From a virus, in the IMG/VR virus record IMGVR_UViG_3300021389_000063, positions 1 through 36,745 of that record: 36,745 nucleotides of DNA. The stretch is one strand, 5' to 3'. The notes beneath the pieces are model-generated. The model searched no databases and had not been told where the DNA came from. It worked only from the letters and a program-made list of their open reading frames with translations. Shown piece by piece: positions 13,666-36,745 of this stretch; position 1 is the stretch's first letter, and every line of letters starts with the position of its first letter. Position numbers and translations under genes: made by a program.

Positions 13666-13949
13666 ACAATACTGAGTTAAAATTAGAGATTATAAAAGCA
13701 GGAAAAAAAGCTGTTAAAGAATTAATTAAGGTTGCTAATGAAGGAATTTTAAAAAAAGACTTAGATGGTCTTGCCCCTGACATTGCAGCTGATAGACTTA
13801 AGAATGCAGCTGCATCTAAAAAATTAGCAATTTTTGATGCTTTTGAAATATTAAGTAAGATTGAAGAAGAAAACAACATGATTGCAAGTAATAAAAATGA
13901 AAGTAAAGCTGCTTCATTTAAAGGTTTTGCAGAAGGTAGGTCAAAATAA
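13662..13949 (+). CDS. Candidate terminase small subunit
   Basis: This 95-aa, all-helical protein starts MNNTELKLEIIKAGKKAVKE. Residues 20-75 (LIKVANEGILKKDLDGLAPD, then RLKNAAASKKLAIFDAFEIL) look like a short helical bundle with Lys-rich segments. Position is the main argument: it directly precedes terL, with its stop overlapping the terL ATG (TAATG), and small terminases are usually there. No clear helix-turn-helix is visible. It could instead be another packaging accessory. It overlaps the GroES-like gene by 4 bases. Confidence 0.5.
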   Translation: MNNTELKLEIIKAGKKAVKELIKVANEGILKKDLDGLAPDIAADRLKNAAASKKLAIFDAFEILSKIEEENNMIASNKNESKAASFKGFAEGRSK

Positions 13950-16174
13950 TGTACGAACAGAATTTATATAAAATACTAGAAGAAGTTATACCTGAAAAGG
14001 TATTGAAGTCTAATAACAAAAAAGGCTTGTGGAAGTATGGATATAATTCAGAGTATGATATAGTTATTATATCTAAAGATGGCACGATTGGTGAAATATA
14101 TGAAATACAAAATTTAAAAATTGCTTTACCCAAAGAAAAAGATGTATATCATTTTGAAAACAATTATTGGGAGGAAATACCATACCCAAAAGATTTAAGC
14201 AAAATAAAAAGCGTATTTGATTGGGATAAATATCCTGATAATTTTAAAGAAAAATGGTATGACTATATTGACAAAGAATTCGAAAGAAGAGAGCAAGGTT
14301 TTTGGTTTTTTAATAAAGACAAGCCTTCTTATATTACTGGTTCTCACTACATGTACTTGCGCTGGACCAAAATTGATGTTGGGCAGCCAAACTTTAGGGA
14401 ATCAAACAGATTATTCTTCATTTTCTGGGAAGCTTGTAAGGCAGACACAAGATCGTACGGAATGTGCTATCTTAAGAACAGGCGCTCTGGGTTTAGCTTC
14501 ATGTCCTCATCGGAACTCGTGCATTTGGCAACAACCTCACGAGATTCACGTTATGGTATATTGTCAAAAACTGGGTCGGATGCTAAGAAGATGTTTACCG
14601 ACAAGGTCGTACCAATATCACTCAACTACCCCTTCTTCTTCAAACCCATCCAGGACGGTATGGACAGGCCCAAGACAGAACTTGCCTATAGAGTACCAGC
14701 CTCCAAACTCACAAGAAAAAAATTGGATGCGAACGAAGCAGTCAAAGAGCTTGAGGGTCTCGATACCACAATCGACTGGAAGAACACAGGGGACAACTCG
14801 TACGATGGGGAAAAATTAAAATTATTAGCTCATGATGAAAGCGGAAAGTGGGAAAAGCCTGATAATATTTTAAATAACTGGAGGGTTACAAAAACATGTT
14901 TAAGGCTAGGTGCTAGAGTCATAGGAAAGTGTATGATGGGGTCAACATCAAATTCTTTAGAAAAAGGAGGTGGTAATTTTAAAAAACTTTACAATGATTC
15001 AGATGTTAGAAAAAGAAATAAAAATGGACAAACTAAGTCAGGATTATATTCTTTGTTCATTCCTATGGAATGGAATTACGAGGGATTCATTGATTCTTAT
15101 GGAATGCCTGTATTCGAAACACCACAGAAACATTGCGTTGGCCCTTATGGAGAAATTATTGATACAGGGGTTATAGACCATTGGAATAACGAAGTAGAAG
15201 GATTAAAGTCAGATCCTGATGGATTAAACGAATATTATAGACAGTTTCCTAGAACAGAGTCACATGCTTTTAGAGATGAAAGCAAGCAATCTCTTTTTAA
15301 CTTACAAAAGATTTATCAGCAAATAGATTATAACGATTCTTTAATAAAAGATAGATTTATAACTAGAGGCTCTTTTTCTTGGAAAAACGGAATTAAAGAC
15401 ACTCAGGTTATTTTTTCTCCAAATGATAGAGGTAGGTTTTATGTTTCATGGACTCCAAACAAACATTTACAAAATCAATTCTATATAAAAGGAGGAATAA
15501 AATACCCTAAAAATGAACACATGGGAGCTTTTGGATGTGATAGTTATGATATATCAGGTACTGTAGGTGGTGGAGGTTCTAATGGAGCTTTACATGGAAT
15601 GACAAAGTTTCATATGGATGAAGGGCCTACTAATGAGTTTTTTTTAGAATATATAGCACGACCTCAAACAGCTGAAATATTTTTTGAAGATGTTTTGATG
15701 GCATGTGTATTTTACGGAATGCCTATATTAATAGAAAACAATAAGCCACGTTTATTGTATCATTTTAAAAATAGAGGATACAGGGGGTTTTCAATGAATA
15801 GACCTGATAAAGTTTATACGAAACTTTCTAAATCAGAAAGAGAATTAGGCGGAATTCCAAACAGTTCTGAAGACATAAAACAAGCTCATGCAGCTGCAAT
15901 AGAGTCCTATATAGAAAAACATGTTGGATTAGATTTAGATGGTGTATTTAGAGACTCTGATTCAATGGGTTCTATGTATTTTAGTAGAACACTTGAAGAC
16001 TGGGCTAGGTTTAATATTAACAACAGAACCAAGTTTGATGCTTCTATTAGCTCAGGTTTAGCTATTATGGCTACACAAAAGGGACTTTATCAGCCCATTA
16101 AAAAGAAATCAAAAATAAAACTTAACTTTGCAAGATACGACAATAAGGGAAGTTATAGCCAAATTATACAATAA
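13949..16174 (+). CDS. terL: Terminase large subunit (TerL)
   Basis: This 741-aa packaging motor has an N-terminal ATPase with an adenine-binding-like region (residues ~100-150, FWFFNKDKPSYITGSHYMYL). The Walker A-like loop is KNRRSGFS (K176-S183), and the Walker B plus catalytic Glu are LKLLAHDES (D296, E297). A coupling-motif-like GSTSNSLEKGGG follows. The C-terminal nuclease (RNase H-like) shows acidic residues at D531 (FGCDSYD) and E596 (MPILIENN), with a third likely in DLDGVFRDSDS. It is longer than the T4-type enzyme and similar in size to those of crAss-like phages. It translocates DNA into the prohead and cuts the genome. Residues ~131-288 are encoded by DNA of strikingly different base and codon use (see 14341-14812). 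The portal gene starts immediately after the stop. Confidence 0.92.
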   Translation: MYEQNLYKILEEVIPEKVLKSNNKKGLWKYGYNSEYDIVIISKDGTIGEIYEIQNLKIALPKEKDVYHFENNYWEEIPYPKDLSKIKSVFDWDKYPDNFKEKWYDYIDKEFERREQGFWFFNKDKPSYITGSHYMYLRWTKIDVGQPNFRESNRLFFIFWEACKADTRSYGMCYLKNRRSGFSFMSSSELVHLATTSRDSRYGILSKTGSDAKKMFTDKVVPISLNYPFFFKPIQDGMDRPKTELAYRVPASKLTRKKLDANEAVKELEGLDTTIDWKNTGDNSYDGEKLKLLAHDESGKWEKPDNILNNWRVTKTCLRLGARVIGKCMMGSTSNSLEKGGGNFKKLYNDSDVRKRNKNGQTKSGLYSLFIPMEWNYEGFIDSYGMPVFETPQKHCVGPYGEIIDTGVIDHWNNEVEGLKSDPDGLNEYYRQFPRTESHAFRDESKQSLFNLQKIYQQIDYNDSLIKDRFITRGSFSWKNGIKDTQVIFSPNDRGRFYVSWTPNKHLQNQFYIKGGIKYPKNEHMGAFGCDSYDISGTVGGGGSNGALHGMTKFHMDEGPTNEFFLEYIARPQTAEIFFEDVLMACVFYGMPILIENNKPRLLYHFKNRGYRGFSMNRPDKVYTKLSKSERELGGIPNSSEDIKQAHAAAIESYIEKHVGLDLDGVFRDSDSMGSMYFSRTLEDWARFNINNRTKFDASISSGLAIMATQKGLYQPIKKKSKIKLNFARYDNKGSYSQIIQ
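14341..14812 (+). other. Foreign-looking codon-use tract inside terL
   Basis: This ~470-bp in-frame segment has about 45% G+C by count over its lines (up to 53% at 14641-14700), against ~23-33% on most flanking lines. From 14415 to 14812 not one Leu codon is TTA (CTC, CTT and TTG only), while TTA is the main Leu codon on both sides. Phe, Asn, Tyr and Asp switch to TTC, AAC, TAC and GAC. The tract spans the Walker A-like loop and stops just before Walker B. The protein stays open and normal-looking. Likely origins are recombination with a diverged phage or co-conversion left by a homing element; a metagenomic chimera is also possible. Confidence 0.85.
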
Positions 16175-18631
16175 ATGGAGGATGTAAAAATCACGATAAA
16201 CCCAACAGGATTTCCTAATCAATTTGTTTCAGATAAACAAAAGGAATCTTTTGAGTTTGGGTTACAAATAGGACAGGCTATTCAGTATGAATGGTTCAGA
16301 AAAGATGGAGGCCAAAGTAGGTTCTATAATCAATGGGCGGATTTCCATAGATTAAGATTATACGCTCGTGGAGAGCAGTCAATTCAAAAATATAAGAATG
16401 AATTAGCCATTGATGGTGACTTAAGTTATTTAAATCTCGACTGGACTCCTGTGCCTATAATTCCCAAGTTTGTTGATATTGTCGTAAACGGTATGGCTGA
16501 CAGAGTATTTAAAATAAATGCTTTTGCTCAAGACGGAATGTCTTTAGAAAAAAGAAGCGAATATCAGGTTCAGCTAGAAAAAGACATGTTAGCAAAACCT
16601 GTGATGAAACAGGTTCAACAGTCATTAGGTATAAATACATTTGCAACTTCAGAAGAAGATGTACCAAACACTTCAGAGGAGTTGGCGTTGCATATGCAGC
16701 TAAAGTATAAACCATCTATAGAGATTGCTGAAGAAGAAGCAATTAATACAGTTTTAGCAGAAAACAGATATTACGAAATACAAAAACAACTATACTATGA
16801 TCAAACAGTATTAGGTGTTGCAATGTGTAAAAATACATTTAAGCCAGGTTCAGGTATATCTGTAGAATATGTAGATCCTGCAAATGTTGTTCATAGTTAT
16901 ACGGAAGATCCTCACTTTGAAGATTGCTTTTATTGGGGAGAAATAAAAACCATGCCTATTACCGAGCTTAAAAAGATAGACACAAGTCTAACTAGACAAG
17001 ACATGGAGGATATATCTAAATATAGCCAAAGTTGGTACGATTACAACAATACAGCTCAATATTATAATAATAGTTTATTTAGCAGAGATAGTGCTACCTT
17101 GTTATTTTTTAATTACAAAACAACTCACACATTTACATATAAGAAAAAAGTTAATGCAGCAGGAGCTGAAAAAGTAATAGAAAAAGACGATACATTTAAT
17201 CCTACTCCTGAAATGCAGGAAGAAGGTAAGTTTGAAAAAGTATCTAAAACTATTGATGTTTGGTATGAGGGAGTAATGGTAATGGGTACTAACATTCTTT
17301 TAAAATGGCAAATGGCTGAAAACATGGCTAGACCTCAATCGGCTTCTCAAGAAGTTTATCCTGAGTATGTGGCATGTGCGCCAAGAATGTATAAAGGCGT
17401 TTATGAGTCCTTAGTAAGACGAATGATTACTTTTGCCGATTTAATACAAATAACTCATTTAAAACTACAACAAGTAATATCTAGGGTAGTTCCTGATGGA
17501 GTGTTTATAGATGCAGATGGAATAAATGAAGTTGATTTAGGTACTGGACAAGCATATAGCCCTGAAGATGCATTAAGAATGTTTTTTCAAACAGGTAGTG
17601 TTATTGGTAGGAGTTATACTCAAGATGGAGACTTCAATCAAGCAAAAGTTCCAATACAGCAGTTAAATAGTAATTCAGGACAAGGAAAAATTCAAAGCTT
17701 GGTAGGGTCGTACAATCATTATCTTCAAATGATGAGAGACGTAACAGGTCTTAATGAAGCTAGAGATGGTTCAACCCCTGATTCTTATTCTTTAGTAGGG
17801 CTTCAAAAGTTAGCTGCCTTAAGCAGTAATACAGCAACAAGGCATATTTTAGATGCAGGACTTCAAATTAGTCAAAGACTTTGTACTGCTTTATCTAGTA
17901 GAATTGCTGATGTTTTAGAGTATTCAGAATTTAGAGAAGAGTTTGTAAATCAAATTGGAAAATTTAACGTTGGAATACTAGATGAAATAAGCAAACTATA
18001 TCTTAGTGATTTCGGTATATTTATTGAAATAGAGCCAGATGAAGAGGAGAGAAAAATGCTTGAGCAAAATATACAAATGGCACTTCAAAGAGACTCTATA
18101 AATTTAGAAGACGCTATAGATATTAGGGAAATAAGAAATTTAAAATTAGCCAATCAAGTATTAAAGTTGAAGCGTAAAGCTAAACAGGATATGGAGCAGC
18201 AGCAAAAAGCACAAGCAGCTCAACAGCAGGCTCAAATAAATCAACAATCACAGCAAATGGCAGCTCAGGCAAAAATGCAACAATTCCAAATGGAAAACCA
18301 AGCTGCTGTGCAATTAGAAAAAGCAAAAGCAGAATTCTCTGTTCAAAAAATGAAAGGTGAAGCTTCGATAAAAGCAGAACTTATGCAGTTAGAGTTTAAC
18401 CTTCAAATGAAACTTAAAGGTGTAGACCTTAACATGAAAAAGATGGAACAAGATGGACTACAAAAAAGAGAGTCTGAAAGAGAGAATGCTAAATCTGCTA
18501 GAATATCTCAAGCAAATACTGAACAATCAAAGCTTATAGAGCAAAGAAAAAACAACCTTCCATCGGTAAGTTTTGAATCAAATGAAGATAGTTTAGATGG
18601 CTTTGACCTAGCAGAGTTTGAGCCAAGATAA
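16175..18631 (+). CDS. Portal protein
   Basis: This 818-aa protein forms the dodecameric DNA gate at the capsid vertex. The N terminus has RLRLYARGEQSIQKYKNELA and WTPVPIIPKFVDIVVNGMAD, a block recognised from portals of marine and crAss-like podoviruses. The stem/clip region includes VEYVDPANVVHSYTEDPHFE, and LNEARDGSTPDSYSLVGLQK is the conserved wing-to-crown region. Residues ~660-790 are a long Gln/Ala/Lys-rich coiled coil (QQQKAQAAQQQAQINQQSQQ), probably a barrel or crown helix projecting into the head. It follows terL without a gap and precedes the scaffold gene. The Gln-rich tail makes it longer than typical portals and is a likely site of misalignment. Confidence 0.9.
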   Translation: MEDVKITINPTGFPNQFVSDKQKESFEFGLQIGQAIQYEWFRKDGGQSRFYNQWADFHRLRLYARGEQSIQKYKNELAIDGDLSYLNLDWTPVPIIPKFVDIVVNGMADRVFKINAFAQDGMSLEKRSEYQVQLEKDMLAKPVMKQVQQSLGINTFATSEEDVPNTSEELALHMQLKYKPSIEIAEEEAINTVLAENRYYEIQKQLYYDQTVLGVAMCKNTFKPGSGISVEYVDPANVVHSYTEDPHFEDCFYWGEIKTMPITELKKIDTSLTRQDMEDISKYSQSWYDYNNTAQYYNNSLFSRDSATLLFFNYKTTHTFTYKKKVNAAGAEKVIEKDDTFNPTPEMQEEGKFEKVSKTIDVWYEGVMVMGTNILLKWQMAENMARPQSASQEVYPEYVACAPRMYKGVYESLVRRMITFADLIQITHLKLQQVISRVVPDGVFIDADGINEVDLGTGQAYSPEDALRMFFQTGSVIGRSYTQDGDFNQAKVPIQQLNSNSGQGKIQSLVGSYNHYLQMMRDVTGLNEARDGSTPDSYSLVGLQKLAALSSNTATRHILDAGLQISQRLCTALSSRIADVLEYSEFREEFVNQIGKFNVGILDEISKLYLSDFGIFIEIEPDEEERKMLEQNIQMALQRDSINLEDAIDIREIRNLKLANQVLKLKRKAKQDMEQQQKAQAAQQQAQINQQSQQMAAQAKMQQFQMENQAAVQLEKAKAEFSVQKMKGEASIKAELMQLEFNLQMKLKGVDLNMKKMEQDGLQKRESERENAKSARISQANTEQSKLIEQRKNNLPSVSFESNEDSLDGFDLAEFEPR

Positions 18632-18682: not shown

Positions 18683-19801
18683 ATGGAAATTAAAGTAAAA
18701 TCATTAGATCCTGTTCCAGAAAAATCTGTTCAGGAAGTAGAAGAAACTCTACTACAAAAACACGAAGAAGAAACAGCAGTAAATACTGCTGATGAAAATA
18801 CCGCTGCAGAAGTTGTTGAAAATCAACCTGTAGAACAAAATACCGAGAATAGCTCGGAAGTTGAAAGTCCAACTATAAAAGACGAAGACGTTCTTTCATA
18901 TATTAAAAACAGATATAATAAAGATATATCATCTGTTGATGATTTGTTTGCTGAAAAAGAGCAAGCAGGTGAATTACCTGAAGATGTGTCTAAGTATTTG
19001 GATTTCAAAAAAGAAACTGGACGTGGATTTGAAGATTTCGTAAAAGCAAATAAAAATTACGATGAATTAAATGACGACCAAGTATTAGCAGAATATTATT
19101 CTTTAACAGAAACTGATTTAGATAGTGAAGATATTTATTATTTAATGGATGAAAAATTTTCTTACGATCAAGAACTTGATGACGAGAAAGATATTAAAAA
19201 GAAAAATATAGCTAAAAAACGAGAGCTTTCAAAAGCTAAGAAATATCTTAATGAGTTTAAGGAAAAATACAGAGTTCCTCTTGAGTCAAGTGGGAGCGCT
19301 ATTTCTGAAAAACAAAATAAAGAAATCGAAGCTTATAGAAGTTATATAGAAGAATCTAAATCTGCATTAGAGGCTAACCAAAGGAAAAATGAGTTTTTCT
19401 TAAAGAAGACAAATGAAGTTTTTAATCCTGAGTTCAAAGGTTTTGAGTTCGAAGTAGGAGACAAAAAAGTAAAGTATTCTTATGGTGATGTTAATGAAAT
19501 GAAATCTAAGCAAAGCGACTTAAACAATTTCGTGAAAAAATATGTAGGCGAAGATGGTTTGATAAGTGATGCTAAGGGATGGCATACTGCATTGAGTGCA
19601 GCTATGAACCCTCAAAGATTTGCAAATTATTTCTACGAGCAGGGTAAAGCAGATGCAATTGGAGATGTTACTAAAAAAAGTAAAAACGTCAACATGAACA
19701 TTAGGCAAACACCTCAATCAATTGGAGATACAGGTTTCAAAGCAAGACAAGTTTCGGACTCTAGCGGACGAGGATTAACGATTAAAAGTAAAAAAAAGTA
19801 A
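18683..19801 (+). CDS. Putative capsid scaffolding protein
   Basis: This 372-aa, highly acidic, largely helical protein sits between portal and major capsid genes, the classic scaffold position. The N terminus is disordered and Glu/Val/Asn-rich (EEETAVNTADENTAAEVVEN). The middle is charged coiled coil (KKKNIAKKRELSKAKKYLNE). The C terminus is basic and short-motif-like (SSGRGLTIKSKKK), which suits a capsid-binding end as in other scaffolds. FEFEVGDKKVKYSYGDVNEM is a small beta segment. There is no protease motif. It would guide shell assembly and then leave or be degraded. Identity is inferred from position and composition, as scaffolds share little sequence. Confidence 0.75.
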   Translation: MEIKVKSLDPVPEKSVQEVEETLLQKHEEETAVNTADENTAAEVVENQPVEQNTENSSEVESPTIKDEDVLSYIKNRYNKDISSVDDLFAEKEQAGELPEDVSKYLDFKKETGRGFEDFVKANKNYDELNDDQVLAEYYSLTETDLDSEDIYYLMDEKFSYDQELDDEKDIKKKNIAKKRELSKAKKYLNEFKEKYRVPLESSGSAISEKQNKEIEAYRSYIEESKSALEANQRKNEFFLKKTNEVFNPEFKGFEFEVGDKKVKYSYGDVNEMKSKQSDLNNFVKKYVGEDGLISDAKGWHTALSAAMNPQRFANYFYEQGKADAIGDVTKKSKNVNMNIRQTPQSIGDTGFKARQVSDSSGRGLTIKSKKK

Positions 19802-19821: not shown

Positions 19822-21243
19822 ATGGCAGTAGATGCAGTACCTGGGTTTGACTTGCAACCAAGTTCAGAACAGGTTTTATTACAGACAAACTACATTACCA
19901 ATTTTGATTTCTTAAATCAGTATCTCCCTGATACTTACGAAAAAGAATTCGAGCGTTATGGTAATCGTACAGTAGCATCATTCTTAAGAATGGTAGGCGC
20001 TGAAATGCCTTCTAACTCTGACCTTATCAAATGGGCAGAGCAAGGAAGATTACACACGAAATATACAAACGTTACTTCTCAAGCGGCAGCAGGGCAATTA
20101 GTTGCTACTTTTGATATTAACGATGTTTTAGTTCCTGGAGCAGGAAATATTGCAATTCGTGTAGGACAGACAGTTATGATTTCTGATAGCACAGCGCTTT
20201 CAGTTCTTAGCAACAAAGCAATCGTTACTGATGTTGATACAGCTAACGCAACTATTACTGTAGCTTTTTATGAAGCAGCAGGTCAAGCAATGGCTTTAGG
20301 TGTACAATGTTCTTTATTTATTTATGGTTCAGAGTTCCAAAAGGGTTCTGTAGGAATGTCAGGTCAATTAGAGGCTGATGACAGTATCTTCTCTAACTCT
20401 CCAATTATCATTAAAGATCACTACGCAGTTAGTGGTTCTGACATGGCTCAGATTGGGTGGATTGAAGTAACAACTGAAAATGGTGCTACAGGATACTTAT
20501 GGTATTTAAAATCAGAGCATGAAACTAGACTTCGTTTTGAAGATTACCTAGAAACAGCTATGGTTGAAGCAGTACCTGCAGAAGCAGGTTCAGGAGCAGC
20601 GGCAATAGCAGAAGGTGTTGCTAGTGGTGTAGGTAACAAAGGTTCAGAAGGACTTTTTTATGTTATCGAAGACCGTGGAAACGTATGGAGCGGTGGTAAC
20701 CCAACAACTCTTGCAGATTTTGATGCTATTATTCAGCGACTTGACAGGCAAGGTTCTATTGAAGAAAACGTAATTTTCTTAAATCGTGAGTTTGGATTTG
20801 ACATTGACGACATGTTAGCTGCTCAAAATTCATATGGTAACCCAGGTGGTACATCATATGGTCTTTTTGACAATGATGAGGAAATGGCTCTAAATTTAGG
20901 ATTCTCAGGATTCCGTAGAGGATACGATTTCTACAAGACAGATTGGAAATATCTTAACGACCCAACAATGCGTGGTGATATTGTAGGTGGAGCTATTAAT
21001 GGGGTATTAGTACCTGCAGGTTCTACAACAGTTTACGACCAAGTGTTAGGTAAAAACGCTAAGAGACCATTCTTGCATGTACGTTACAGAGCTTCAGAAA
21101 CTGAAGACAGACGTTACAAGACTTGGATTACAGGTTCAGCAGGTGGAGCTTCAACTTCTAGCTTAGATGCTATGGAAGTAAACTTCTTATCTGAAAGAGC
21201 TTTATGTACTTTAGGTGCTAACAACTTCTTTATCTTTGAATAA
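19822..21243 (+). CDS. Major capsid protein
   Basis: This 473-aa protein has an HK97-fold-compatible layout: N-arm, a long mixed alpha/beta body, and a C-terminal end RPFLHVRYRASETEDRRYKT to ERALCTLGANNFFIF. Residues ~70-165 form a beta-rich insertion (VRVGQTVMIS-like region IAIRVGQTVMISDST), while ENVIFLNREFGFDIDDMLAA is the P-domain-like helix. It follows the scaffold and ends in a strong hairpin terminator. The end resembles capsid proteins of crAss-like and marine Bacteroidota phages from memory. Codon use is biased towards CGT (Arg), TTC and AAC, whereas neighbours use AGA, TTT and AAT; this is typical of highly translated genes and less extreme than the terL tract. Confidence 0.85.
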   Translation: MAVDAVPGFDLQPSSEQVLLQTNYITNFDFLNQYLPDTYEKEFERYGNRTVASFLRMVGAEMPSNSDLIKWAEQGRLHTKYTNVTSQAAAGQLVATFDINDVLVPGAGNIAIRVGQTVMISDSTALSVLSNKAIVTDVDTANATITVAFYEAAGQAMALGVQCSLFIYGSEFQKGSVGMSGQLEADDSIFSNSPIIIKDHYAVSGSDMAQIGWIEVTTENGATGYLWYLKSEHETRLRFEDYLETAMVEAVPAEAGSGAAAIAEGVASGVGNKGSEGLFYVIEDRGNVWSGGNPTTLADFDAIIQRLDRQGSIEENVIFLNREFGFDIDDMLAAQNSYGNPGGTSYGLFDNDEEMALNLGFSGFRRGYDFYKTDWKYLNDPTMRGDIVGGAINGVLVPAGSTTVYDQVLGKNAKRPFLHVRYRASETEDRRYKTWITGSAGGASTSSLDAMEVNFLSERALCTLGANNFFIFE

Positions 21244-33680: not shown

Positions 33681-36600
33681 ATGGATCAAGAGGTATTACA
33701 AGATTTATACGATAGAGCCAAATCAAAGGGGTATAGCAAATCTATAGAGGAATTTCAGCAACTAATAGCTTCGGATAATGAGGTTTTAAATGATAATTTT
33801 GAGTATGTCAAATCAAAAGGATATACAAAAGATATATCTGATTTTTCTGTATTAGTAGGAGTCGGTGAAAAAAAAAATTCAAATTCTACTTCAGAAGAGG
33901 TCGTTACGGAATTCACTACAGAAACGGAAGCAAGTCCTTCATCCTTGGACTCTTCTTCAACAACAACAAGCTTTGAAATACCTCCTGTAGAACAAGAAGA
34001 AGAGGTTCAAATTTCTATACCTGACGCACCATCAAGAAAAGGAACTTTACAAAACGAAGATGGCAGCATTTCTACGCATAAAATGAGAACAGAAACCGAT
34101 GGTCAAGGCAATTGGTTTTCATTCCCTACGGTATTTCAAAACGAAGATGGTTCTTTTGTAGATATGTCTGAGCAAGCAGAACAAGATTGGAACTCTGTTT
34201 ATGAAGAAGCTCAAAGAAGGGGTGAGGTTATAAATTTCGGTTCAGATAAAAATTCAGCTATTCAATACGGAAAAGGTTCATGGAAAAATAAATTCGATGC
34301 AAGAAATAATACTGAATTATTAAATTCTGTTGGATATCTTGAAGCACAAGAAGGGTTTCCAGAATTTGCTAAAATTGAAGTTGAGAATATTTCAGGGAGT
34401 ACCATGCCTGCTGTAGAAGATGGGTATTTTGTTATGGAAAATGGAGAGAGAGTTTACAAGAAAGAATCAGAGCTAGACCCTAAGGTTGTAGAGGCCATAA
34501 AGCTTTATGAATCAGCAAACTCTTCCATAAAACCTGAAGCTCACATTGATGTAGAATTAACAGAAGAGGACTATGCGAATGAAGATAATATAAGTGATGA
34601 ATTACTTCAATCCAATGGCATAGACGACATAGAAGATTACAGAAAATGGGATAAAAAGAATTCTAGAAAAGAAACAAAAACATTTAAGTTTTTTAAACAA
34701 CTATTAGCTAGTGATGAAGGAGATCAGTTTGAGATAGAAAAAAGAGACTATGAAAAGATTCAAGCTTATAAGGCCTCAAAGTTAAATAGAGTAACTGAGG
34801 AACTTAACAAAATACAAGCCTCCCTAAAGTTAACTACAAAGCCTGAGGAAATAAAGGAATTAAAAGAACTTGAAAAAGAACTGACAACTGAATTTATTGA
34901 GACTGCTAGTGAAATGACAAATACTATTAATTCTTTTTCTAAATACAAAGAGTATACAGAAGATGCTGATTTAAAGAGAAGAAAAAGAATGTATAATGCG
35001 GCTAAAAGAGGCGGTATTGGTGAATATGGACAAGCAACTTCAGAATTAATAAAAACAGGCGGAAATACCATAGCTAGTTTTGCCGTAGATTTTGTCGGTG
35101 GTATTCCAGGTTTTTTTGACCAAAGACTAAGCAATTTAGGATTTGACAACAAAGGCGTGTTGGCAGGGCTTAGTGATATGTTTACAGACTCTGCAGACCA
35201 CATTGAGTTAGAGTACGGAGCAGTTCAGAGAAAGGCTTTTATAGAAGGTAAGCCTGTATATTATAAAGGAGAAATGTATACAGTTGATTCTAACGGAACT
35301 GTTTATGATAATAGAACTAATGTTAGAATGGATGGAATTATATCTGATTTTGATATAAAAGAAATTCGAGACCGATCAAAGGATGTACCCAATACAGAAA
35401 TACAATGGACAGGAGGAGCAACACTTCAAGGAGGTGTTCAGACGCTTGCTAATCTTTTTGCTTTAATTAGAACAGGTAAAAAGGTGAATAAGTCTATGGG
35501 TCTTGAGAAGTATATGAAAGCAGAAACAGCAGGAAAAGTAGGGATGGGTCTCGCTTCATTTACTAGTTCTGTAACCGATAATGTTGACGATATTAGGTCT
35601 CAACTCATGTCTAGTGGAATGGGGGAAAAGGAAGCTATGGAGTACGCTGTAAATGCAGGACAGGCTATAGCGACTTTAGATGGAATATTTTCAGGATTAG
35701 CAGGTAGTAACGAAAAACTATTAACAGGCTTTCAAGGTATAAAAGAACAAATTAAAAATTTAGCAGTTAGCAAAGGAAAAGACTTCAGTAAAAAACAACT
35801 TATTGATAAGGGTAAATCTTTGATGATTGAAAACATAAAAGAGTTAGGTGTAGAAGAACTTCCTGTTTTATTTGCTGAAAGAGGCATAAACTATTTAGTT
35901 AACGAATCAATAGGAAAAGAAGTTTTAAACCAAAAAATTACAAAAGCTGATGCTATTGAAACGGCTGTAATGACTATAGGCGCTACCTCTACTTTGGGGT
36001 CTAAAAAACTATTGACAGGAAACAGAAGAGCAGACCTAGTCAGAACAGTAGCTAAAGACATAGACAACCTGCAAGAGACTTTGGATGTTTTAGTTAAGGA
36101 AGGTTCATTAACTAAAAAGGAAGCAATGAATGCGTATACTGAAATATACAATATGCAAAGTGCTGAACTAAAAACAAAAGGAACGATACTAGTTTCGTCA
36201 AACCTAGAAGAAGCAGATGGTCTTCTTTCGCAAAGACAGAATTTATTGAACGAAAGAGAGGGTTTGGAAGGCCCTGCTAAGAAAAAAGTTGACCAAAGAA
36301 TAGCTGACATAGATGCTCAAATAGATGCTCTTTACAAAAAAGACGAGGAGCAAGCTAGAGCAATTATGGAAGGCGAGCAAGAAGGAGAGACTGAAATCAC
36401 AGTTACAGATACAGAGGTTTTAGAGGCTCTAAAAGCTGATGGAATTGAATCTCCTACTGAGCAACAGAAAATAAAAAAATCAGATGAACTTATAAAAATA
36501 AAACAAGATGCCATTCAAAAGCCAAGCACAGAGAAGCAAGTGTTACCAGATGATGCAGGAAGCAAAAAAGATGGGACAGAATCCGAAGTGGGACTGCGAC

Positions 36601-36745
36601 AAGTGGGAGAAGGAGACGTTGAGTCGAGCGTTACCCAAGAGGGTGACACCGAAACGGAAACGGAAACCGACCAAACTAGCGACACGATTACGCAGACAGA
36701 TACTGAACAGATAACTGAAACCTCTACAGACCAAGAGGTGATGAG
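33681..36745 (+). CDS. Large internal virion protein, N-terminal 1021 aa (runs off the window)
   Basis: The frame opens at ATG 33681 and has no stop before the window end. Residues ~9-61 hold two copies of a short motif, LYDRAKSKGYSKSIEEFQQL and FEYVKSKGYTKDISDFSVLV, seen at the starts of large Bacteroidota phage virion proteins. Residues ~118-203 form a conserved-looking module with LQNEDGSISTHKM, GNWFSFPTVFQNEDGSFVDM and RRGEVINFGSDKN. Coiled coil follows (EELNKIQASLKLTTKPEEIK), then amphipathic or hydrophobic stretches (NTIASFAVDFVGGIPGFF, LANLFALIRTG, ETAVMTIGATSTLG). The visible end is disordered and Glu/Asp/Thr-rich (ETETETDQTSDTITQTD), overlapping a nested gene in another frame. It is likely a giant ejected protein, possibly with a lytic or polymerase-like domain beyond the window. 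Confidence 0.8.
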   Translation, partial: MDQEVLQDLYDRAKSKGYSKSIEEFQQLIASDNEVLNDNFEYVKSKGYTKDISDFSVLVGVGEKKNSNSTSEEVVTEFTTETEASPSSLDSSSTTTSFEIPPVEQEEEVQISIPDAPSRKGTLQNEDGSISTHKMRTETDGQGNWFSFPTVFQNEDGSFVDMSEQAEQDWNSVYEEAQRRGEVINFGSDKNSAIQYGKGSWKNKFDARNNTELLNSVGYLEAQEGFPEFAKIEVENISGSTMPAVEDGYFVMENGERVYKKESELDPKVVEAIKLYESANSSIKPEAHIDVELTEEDYANEDNISDELLQSNGIDDIEDYRKWDKKNSRKETKTFKFFKQLLASDEGDQFEIEKRDYEKIQAYKASKLNRVTEELNKIQASLKLTTKPEEIKELKELEKELTTEFIETASEMTNTINSFSKYKEYTEDADLKRRKRMYNAAKRGGIGEYGQATSELIKTGGNTIASFAVDFVGGIPGFFDQRLSNLGFDNKGVLAGLSDMFTDSADHIELEYGAVQRKAFIEGKPVYYKGEMYTVDSNGTVYDNRTNVRMDGIISDFDIKEIRDRSKDVPNTEIQWTGGATLQGGVQTLANLFALIRTGKKVNKSMGLEKYMKAETAGKVGMGLASFTSSVTDNVDDIRSQLMSSGMGEKEAMEYAVNAGQAIATLDGIFSGLAGSNEKLLTGFQGIKEQIKNLAVSKGKDFSKKQLIDKGKSLMIENIKELGVEELPVLFAERGINYLVNESIGKEVLNQKITKADAIETAVMTIGATSTLGSKKLLTGNRRADLVRTVAKDIDNLQETLDVLVKEGSLTKKEAMNAYTEIYNMQSAELKTKGTILVSSNLEEADGLLSQRQNLLNEREGLEGPAKKKVDQRIADIDAQIDALYKKDEEQARAIMEGEQEGETEITVTDTEVLEALKADGIESPTEQQKIKKSDELIKIKQDAIQKPSTEKQVLPDDAGSKKDGTESEVGLRQVGEGDVESSVTQEGDTETETETDQTSDTITQTDTEQITETSTDQEVM
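36508..36714 (+). CDS. Nested small basic phage protein (MPFKSQAQRSKC type)
   Basis: This 68-aa protein is encoded +1 to the large gene that surrounds it: MPFKSQAQRSKCYQMMQEAK, then WDCDKWEKETLSRALPKRV and a basic tail PKRKRKPTKLATRLRR. The 'MPFKSxAQxxKCYxxxxxxK...WxCxxWExET...LPxxV' pattern is that of a very common small phage protein of unknown function, which makes chance unlikely. The overlapping frame here is low-complexity and acidic, while this one is basic and has a recognisable motif. Two Cys (12 and 30) are conserved-looking. G+C rises in the overlap. It is either a true overprinted gene or a sign that the large gene's 3' end is grown over an old small gene. Confidence 0.65.
   Translation: MPFKSQAQRSKCYQMMQEAKKMGQNPKWDCDKWEKETLSRALPKRVTPKRKRKPTKLATRLRRQILNR

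Follow-up and report, generated by a model that had tools for sequence, protein, structure and literature searches.

A conserved small phage gene apparently nested out of frame in the acidic linker of a giant late gene

Can a small gene from a widespread phage family be read from the same DNA as part of a much larger late gene, with both frames in use? The question is raised by the IMG/VR virus record IMGVR_UViG_3300021389_000063, of which we analysed a stretch of 36,745 bases (hereafter the window), itself a virus record. A 68-aa ORF of the MPFKSxAQ family, running from ATG to TAA on the plus strand (36508..36714) and recognized from ORF calls, homology and selection, lies within the 5' part of a giant late gene (33681..36743, plus strand, 1021 aa within the window, 3' end open). 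The distance between the two starts (36508-33681 = 2827 = 1 modulo 3) puts the small ORF in the +1 phase. Across the overlap (36507..36713, plus strand) the giant gene encodes an acidic, Thr/Glu-rich linker, DAIQKPSTEKQVL..., and the net charges of the two products are opposed, +16 for the small protein and -13 for the giant-gene frame. A repeat, gaaacg/gaaacg/gaaacc (36651-36668), reads ETETET in the giant frame and K-R-K-R-K in the small one. These coordinates, the +1 frame, the opposite charges and the double-reading repeat had been reported in an initial annotation, and all were confirmed. Close relatives in which the gene is complete, L001 and L011 among them, encode giant proteins of 2208-3104 aa. 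No convincing Pfam domain was found in the giant host proteins, leaving a polyvalent or ejected protein unconfirmed.

We conclude with considerable confidence that this is a dual-coding locus, in which an MPFKSxAQ gene sits as a compact cassette inside the variable acidic linker of a late gene. Overprinting with two frames in use, as the initial annotation had suggested, is well supported by comparison (homology and selection in two frames), with the reservation that neither translation of the small frame nor its protein has been directly shown. The openness of the small frame is by itself weak evidence for a gene. With the giant protein held fixed, an open +1 frame of 68 codons arises in 1.4% of synonymous recodings, and the host genes contain roughly one other +1 ORF of at least 38 codons per 1,000 codons. 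The nest is spanned by two open antisense frames as well (window 36515-36745 and 36543-36743, both minus strand); this is probably an effect of composition, which weakens openness as evidence further. The nested ORF stands far above chance because of its homology, its codon-structured selection and the constant relative frame of its nested relatives.

A search of IMG/VR with the small protein confirmed at least 100 relatives, of which 80 were kept. Seventeen of these are 72-91% identical across almost their entire length. A longer ORF on the same strand encloses the small ORF completely in 70 of the 80, and its frame relative to the small ORF never differs; nine copies stand alone, and L038 is truncated by the contig end. 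A second sample, drawn with a degenerate DNA pattern for the N-terminus regardless of nesting, gave 43 nested and 37 non-nested copies by a simple rule. The window protein meets the family hallmarks, namely the N-terminal MPFKSxAQ, a helical segment leading to W/F-E-x-x-T, an LP and a basic tail. Free copies were matched in Streptomyces phages, in phages 023Pt_psg01 and C75C1, and in metagenome-assembled genomes (MAGs) labelled Acidobacteria, Chloroflexi, Gemmatimonadales and others. One set (L244-L285) consists mostly of standalone members in soil-bacterial MAGs, for which a prophage or chromosomal origin is undecided. The neighbours of standalone copies are mixed and include terminase, portal and tail-fibre genes as well as many unassigned ones; judged from these neighbourhoods, standalone copies keep late-region company without a single constant partner.

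The window protein matched no Pfam, PHROG or NCBIfam model, and searches of the same collections with its relatives gave only weak, chance-level matches. The nearest, phrog_1375 (unknown function, 70 aa), resembles residues 3-52 of one nested relative (L063) with an E-value of 0.011, which falls short of a safe threshold, and the window protein itself was not matched by it. Inspection of three Elemovirus regions and of the ctfjg026 region showed no annotation of the small gene, and we found no prior description of a nested MPFKS gene in the open-access literature (subscription papers lay outside the search). By these comparisons, MPFKSxAQ is an uncatalogued small-protein family.

Most often the nest is hosted by a giant late protein, at 62 loci that include the window and Elemovirus; 45 loci have it in a protein of about 400 aa and 4 in a second giant group, and the remaining hosts are singletons. 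The second giant group (L052, L057, L059, L062) has no BLAST link to the first and carries a SWNCQEWE variant, nested in the same phase. The ~400-aa host has a homologue in the window that is free of a nest, a scaffold-like gene (18683..19801, plus strand) located between the portal gene (16175..18631, plus strand, phrog_6547) and the probable major capsid gene (19822..21243, plus strand). The latter is a homologue of phi18:3 gp104, which was found in virions by mass spectrometry (MS) according to its database record. The position and acidic make-up of the ~400-aa gene product, together with the absence of an MS note for its phi18:3 homologue gp103, suggest that it is a scaffolding protein. 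The scaffold-like gene was also present in 29 of the 34 giant-nest records searched, the other five being contigs shorter than 30 kb, and none of the copies read in these records contained a nest-like ORF. Profile matches to the small gene were single in 33 of 34 records, and one (L011) had an additional partial match. In the tree of the scaffold-like gene, phages with giant-gene nests and phages with scaffold-gene nests are separated by a single branch with full support. The contig of L063 (105 kb, G021) has two copies of the scaffold-like gene and may be a joined assembly. Free small genes were found in six cases (L027, L029, L031, L045-L047); in the only two read for this (L027:8001 and L045:8001), the free copy begins directly after a complete giant gene ends.

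To obtain a prevalence estimate blind to the nest, contigs were picked through the terminase large subunit, whose gene in the window lies at 13949..16174 (plus strand, phrog_6681). Of 28 complete scaffold-like genes in this sample, 24 carry a nest, around codons 44-76. Most of these nests have diverged at the N-terminus (MPFKHKRQ, MPFKSEKQ, MPFKNQSQ and others), and 22 such diverged nests are missed by the strict motif. One nest-free gene (L290) shares its contig with L004, whose nest occupies the giant gene; three more (L292, L294, L296) are fragments on contigs too short to exclude a nest elsewhere. The terminase places the window phage with ctfjg026 and Elemovirus; the related terminases of the Cellulophaga phages phi18:3 and phi38:1 and of the Tenacibaculum phage Gundel_1 are further off. 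The two Cellulophaga phages share the scaffold-like gene with the window but lack the small gene, no copy of which was found in the whole records of phi18:3, phi38:1 or Gundel_1. From this sampling, nesting is the rule in the window's clade, aquatic phages related to flavobacterial phages. The initial annotation had called the family one that normally stands alone, in which nesting would be unusual; the first part holds elsewhere, and the second does not hold in the window's own clade.

How the nest came to occupy more than one host gene bears on whether it moves. In 10 of the 17 close relatives, DNA similarity over the last 1.2 kb is limited to the nest and mostly 13-16 nt upstream of it. In many relatives this upstream border coincides with an A-rich start region, taaaaataaaacaag (36493..36507, plus strand), and similarity often ends about 14 nt before the nested ATG. 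In an Aureispira-binned contig the nest segment is the sole DNA-level similarity to the window, at 97%. The tree of the small protein intermixes giant-gene and scaffold-gene nests, and a single clade of giant-gene nests was rejected (AU test, p = 0.0025, on 44 columns only); these trees rest on 44-47 columns and leave many forks unresolved. L011 and two Elemovirus loci contain a short 5' nest remnant about 0.4-0.7 kb upstream of the nest, in the same phase and with early small-frame stops (L011:7326-7379, L083 near 5605, L088 near 7605), and the large frame remains open through all three. Stops in the small frame of relatives, which according to the initial annotation would have counted against the gene, occur only in such short remnants beside an intact copy.

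Exchange of nest sequences between fixed sites could imitate relocation. A real but immobile nest, held at a fixed site in each clade and exchanged only by recombination over the conserved cassette, is a possibility to which we give serious but lesser weight. It accommodates a location that tracks phage clade, with one change on the scaffold-gene tree, while nest sequences mix, and the restriction of DNA similarity to the cassette fits gene conversion. It nevertheless still requires at least one change of place to account for two host genes and for free copies after the giant gene, and it is opposed by the remnant copies found elsewhere in the giant gene. The sequence comparisons are compatible both with relocation and with exchange between fixed sites, and we favour a mixture of the two. 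We lean, if only slightly, towards an overprinted gene that is mobile. It would combine a start signal with an old ORF, the other frame of which is a ready-made, stop-free acidic linker; it could move between linkers in unrelated late genes, always keeping its phase, would leave 5' remnants at earlier sites and would be translated from its internal start.

Each substitution was classified by what it changes in either frame, using our own simplified OLGenie-like method, which includes no transition bias and no formal null. This comparison of conservation in the two frames, which the initial annotation had recommended, revealed strong constraint on the small frame, with dNN/dNS of 0.23 in the window group (bootstrap 0.20-0.44), 0.20 in all giant-gene nests, 0.24 in all scaffold-gene nests and 0.14 in pairs of at least 70% identity. 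Changes that are silent in the small frame are close to saturation. The corresponding dNN/dSN of the large frame was 1.08 in the window group, 0.80 in giant-gene nests and 0.83 in scaffold-gene nests, and 0.54-0.80 for the most similar pairs. As a control, the nest-free C-terminal part of the scaffold-like gene gave the reversed picture (alternative frame 0.63-0.90, host frame 0.08-0.22). These ratios indicate that the small frame is under purifying selection and that, as regards residue identity, the large frame is under weak constraint or none. Conservation lies with the small frame, which, judged from its standalone relatives, is probably the older of the two.

The ratio near 1 in the window group could be taken to mean that the small frame alone matters, with the large frame passive, open merely to avoid truncation and unselected in composition. 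The linkers flanking the nest are compatible with this; just outside the overlap those of the giant gene barely align, even among close relatives. We nevertheless consider a passive large frame unlikely. Similar giant-gene nests outside the window group give a large-frame dNN/dSN of 0.54 (0.36-0.84). Stop-free recodings of the small protein would give the giant frame a mean charge of +11.5 rather than the real -13, and the host frames of nine other nests were likewise far more acidic than such recodings predict (10 of 10 tested, including the window). Third-base choice before A is also shifted strongly to G: where a lysine codon precedes A, nests use AAG in 84% and 81% of cases, and the rest of these host genes in 35% and 21%. 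Part of this AAG use could come from the higher GC of the nest (0.50, against 0.36 in giant genes) without selection for acidity. Since stop-free recodings would produce a positive charge, the opposite charges are not a by-product of the genetic code, and the acidic linker itself appears to be under selection.

Avoidance of stops in the large frame points in the same direction. None of 20,000 random synonymous recodings of the window small protein keeps the giant frame open. T-ending codons before AA, AG or GA, which create host stops, number 0 of 768 and 0 of 431 in nests, where about 109 and 77 would be expected, as compared with 144 of 492 (158 expected) at the same joints in standalone copies. 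The zero counts arise partly by construction, as nests had been defined by openness, and for that reason the recoding result serves as the independent figure. In all six free copies noted above, AAA is preceded by TTT, a combination that would create a host stop if nested. Where Gln follows Phe, in L006 and L016, the Phe codon is TTT; the other giant-gene and scaffold-gene nests counted have TTC. We infer from these codon patterns that the large frame is still selected, with stops avoided and its coding shifted to acidity.

The pattern of substitutions bears as well on a reading in which conservation belongs to a DNA or RNA element, such as a site for packaging or processing, and the small ORF is its by-product. 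Such an element would match the sharp borders of the similarity and its high level across diverged phages, but it is very improbable given that substitutions track the codon structure of the small frame, that changes silent in this frame are near saturation and that standalone relatives retain the protein sequence with different DNA. A sequencing or assembly frame error fusing two genes, which the initial annotation had named as a possible refutation and which is conceivable in principle for a single contig, found no support and can be practically dismissed, as the same arrangement recurs in dozens of independent contigs, in cultured Elemovirus genomes and in a bacterial MAG contig, the closest relatives among them (the L014 giant protein is colinear with that of the window, with 88% identity over 986 aa).

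In Flavobacterium johnsoniae, adenines at -3, -6 and -11 to -14 are reported to promote initiation (PMC6847099). The window start region has A at all six of these positions and no Shine-Dalgarno sequence. Nests have on average 4.6 of the six key adenines, compared with 2.3 for 4,809 other same-phase ATGs and 3.8 for the window's ordinary gene starts, and Shine-Dalgarno cores occur in 3 of 42 and 0 of 41 nests. Host-frame lysine codons could supply part of this A-richness. The nested ATG thus meets the Bacteroidota criterion for a start without Shine-Dalgarno sequence, in the absence of translation data. A product fused by programmed frameshifting was rejected, because in many relatives the small frame is stopped 0-5 codons ahead of the ATG (two codons in the window).

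Putting these elements together, the cassette consists of an A-rich start signal of about 14 nt plus the small ORF, set within an acidic linker. Comparison shows that the small frame is conserved as protein-coding, with start signals of the flavobacterial type, and that the large frame is held open and acidic across it. One full copy is present per nest-bearing record: within the giant gene in one of the two sister clades, within the scaffold-like gene in the other, and free after the giant gene in a few phages. Nest sequences have been exchanged or moved among these places. We infer that ribosomes use the nested ATG of the late mRNA as an independent start, so that the small protein would be made alongside structural proteins without an operon slot of its own. 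Wherever it was inserted in the right phase, the cassette would read as a stop-free linker, because host stops arise only from small-frame codons that end in T, and for these a silent replacement is always available.

An AlphaFold2 model of the small protein contains three helices (6-22, 30-38, 56-66; pLDDT 83.5, pTM 0.44), and a fold search of the PDB with this model returned no match. Matches from a PDB sequence search (designed repeat proteins and others) were discarded as likely chance. A viral fold library returned uncharacterised proteins of Terrestrivirus and Harvfovirus (E-values 5e-3 and 1.6e-2), on which we do not rely; from these model-based matches the family may reach giant viruses. 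The basic charge and the late-region company of the hosts and of some free copies are the grounds for a tentative guess, untested and not backed by any fold or family match, that this is a basic helical protein acting in late head assembly or DNA packaging, perhaps by binding DNA or an acidic scaffold.

The locus offers a natural experiment, in many sequences, on how two frames share DNA. It bears on Shine-Dalgarno-free internal initiation in Bacteroidota phages and on the mobility of nested genes, and it suggests that annotation pipelines which bar nested genes hide a real family. A known nested gene is Rz1 of lambda-like phages, a small spanin gene that lies in a different frame within the late gene Rz and has its own start. 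The MPFKSxAQ gene resembles it in lying inside a late gene, in a different frame and with its own start. It differs in that its host is giant or scaffold-like, in that the small protein is basic and helical without a hydrophobic signal or lipobox, and in that the small gene also occurs alone and in a second, unrelated host gene. An Rz1-type spanin was rejected, since the N-terminus, MPFKSQAQRSKC, has no hydrophobic stretch and the host is a giant late gene. Viral overprinting is usually described as a de novo frame atop an older gene (PMC8227390). Our locus is alike in that two same-strand frames are selected over one stretch of DNA. It differs in an apparently reversed polarity: wide distribution and conservation belong to the embedded frame and flexibility to the large one, and a widespread gene lies out of frame in at least two unrelated genes, in contrast to the usual new frame that arises on an old gene and stays fixed there.
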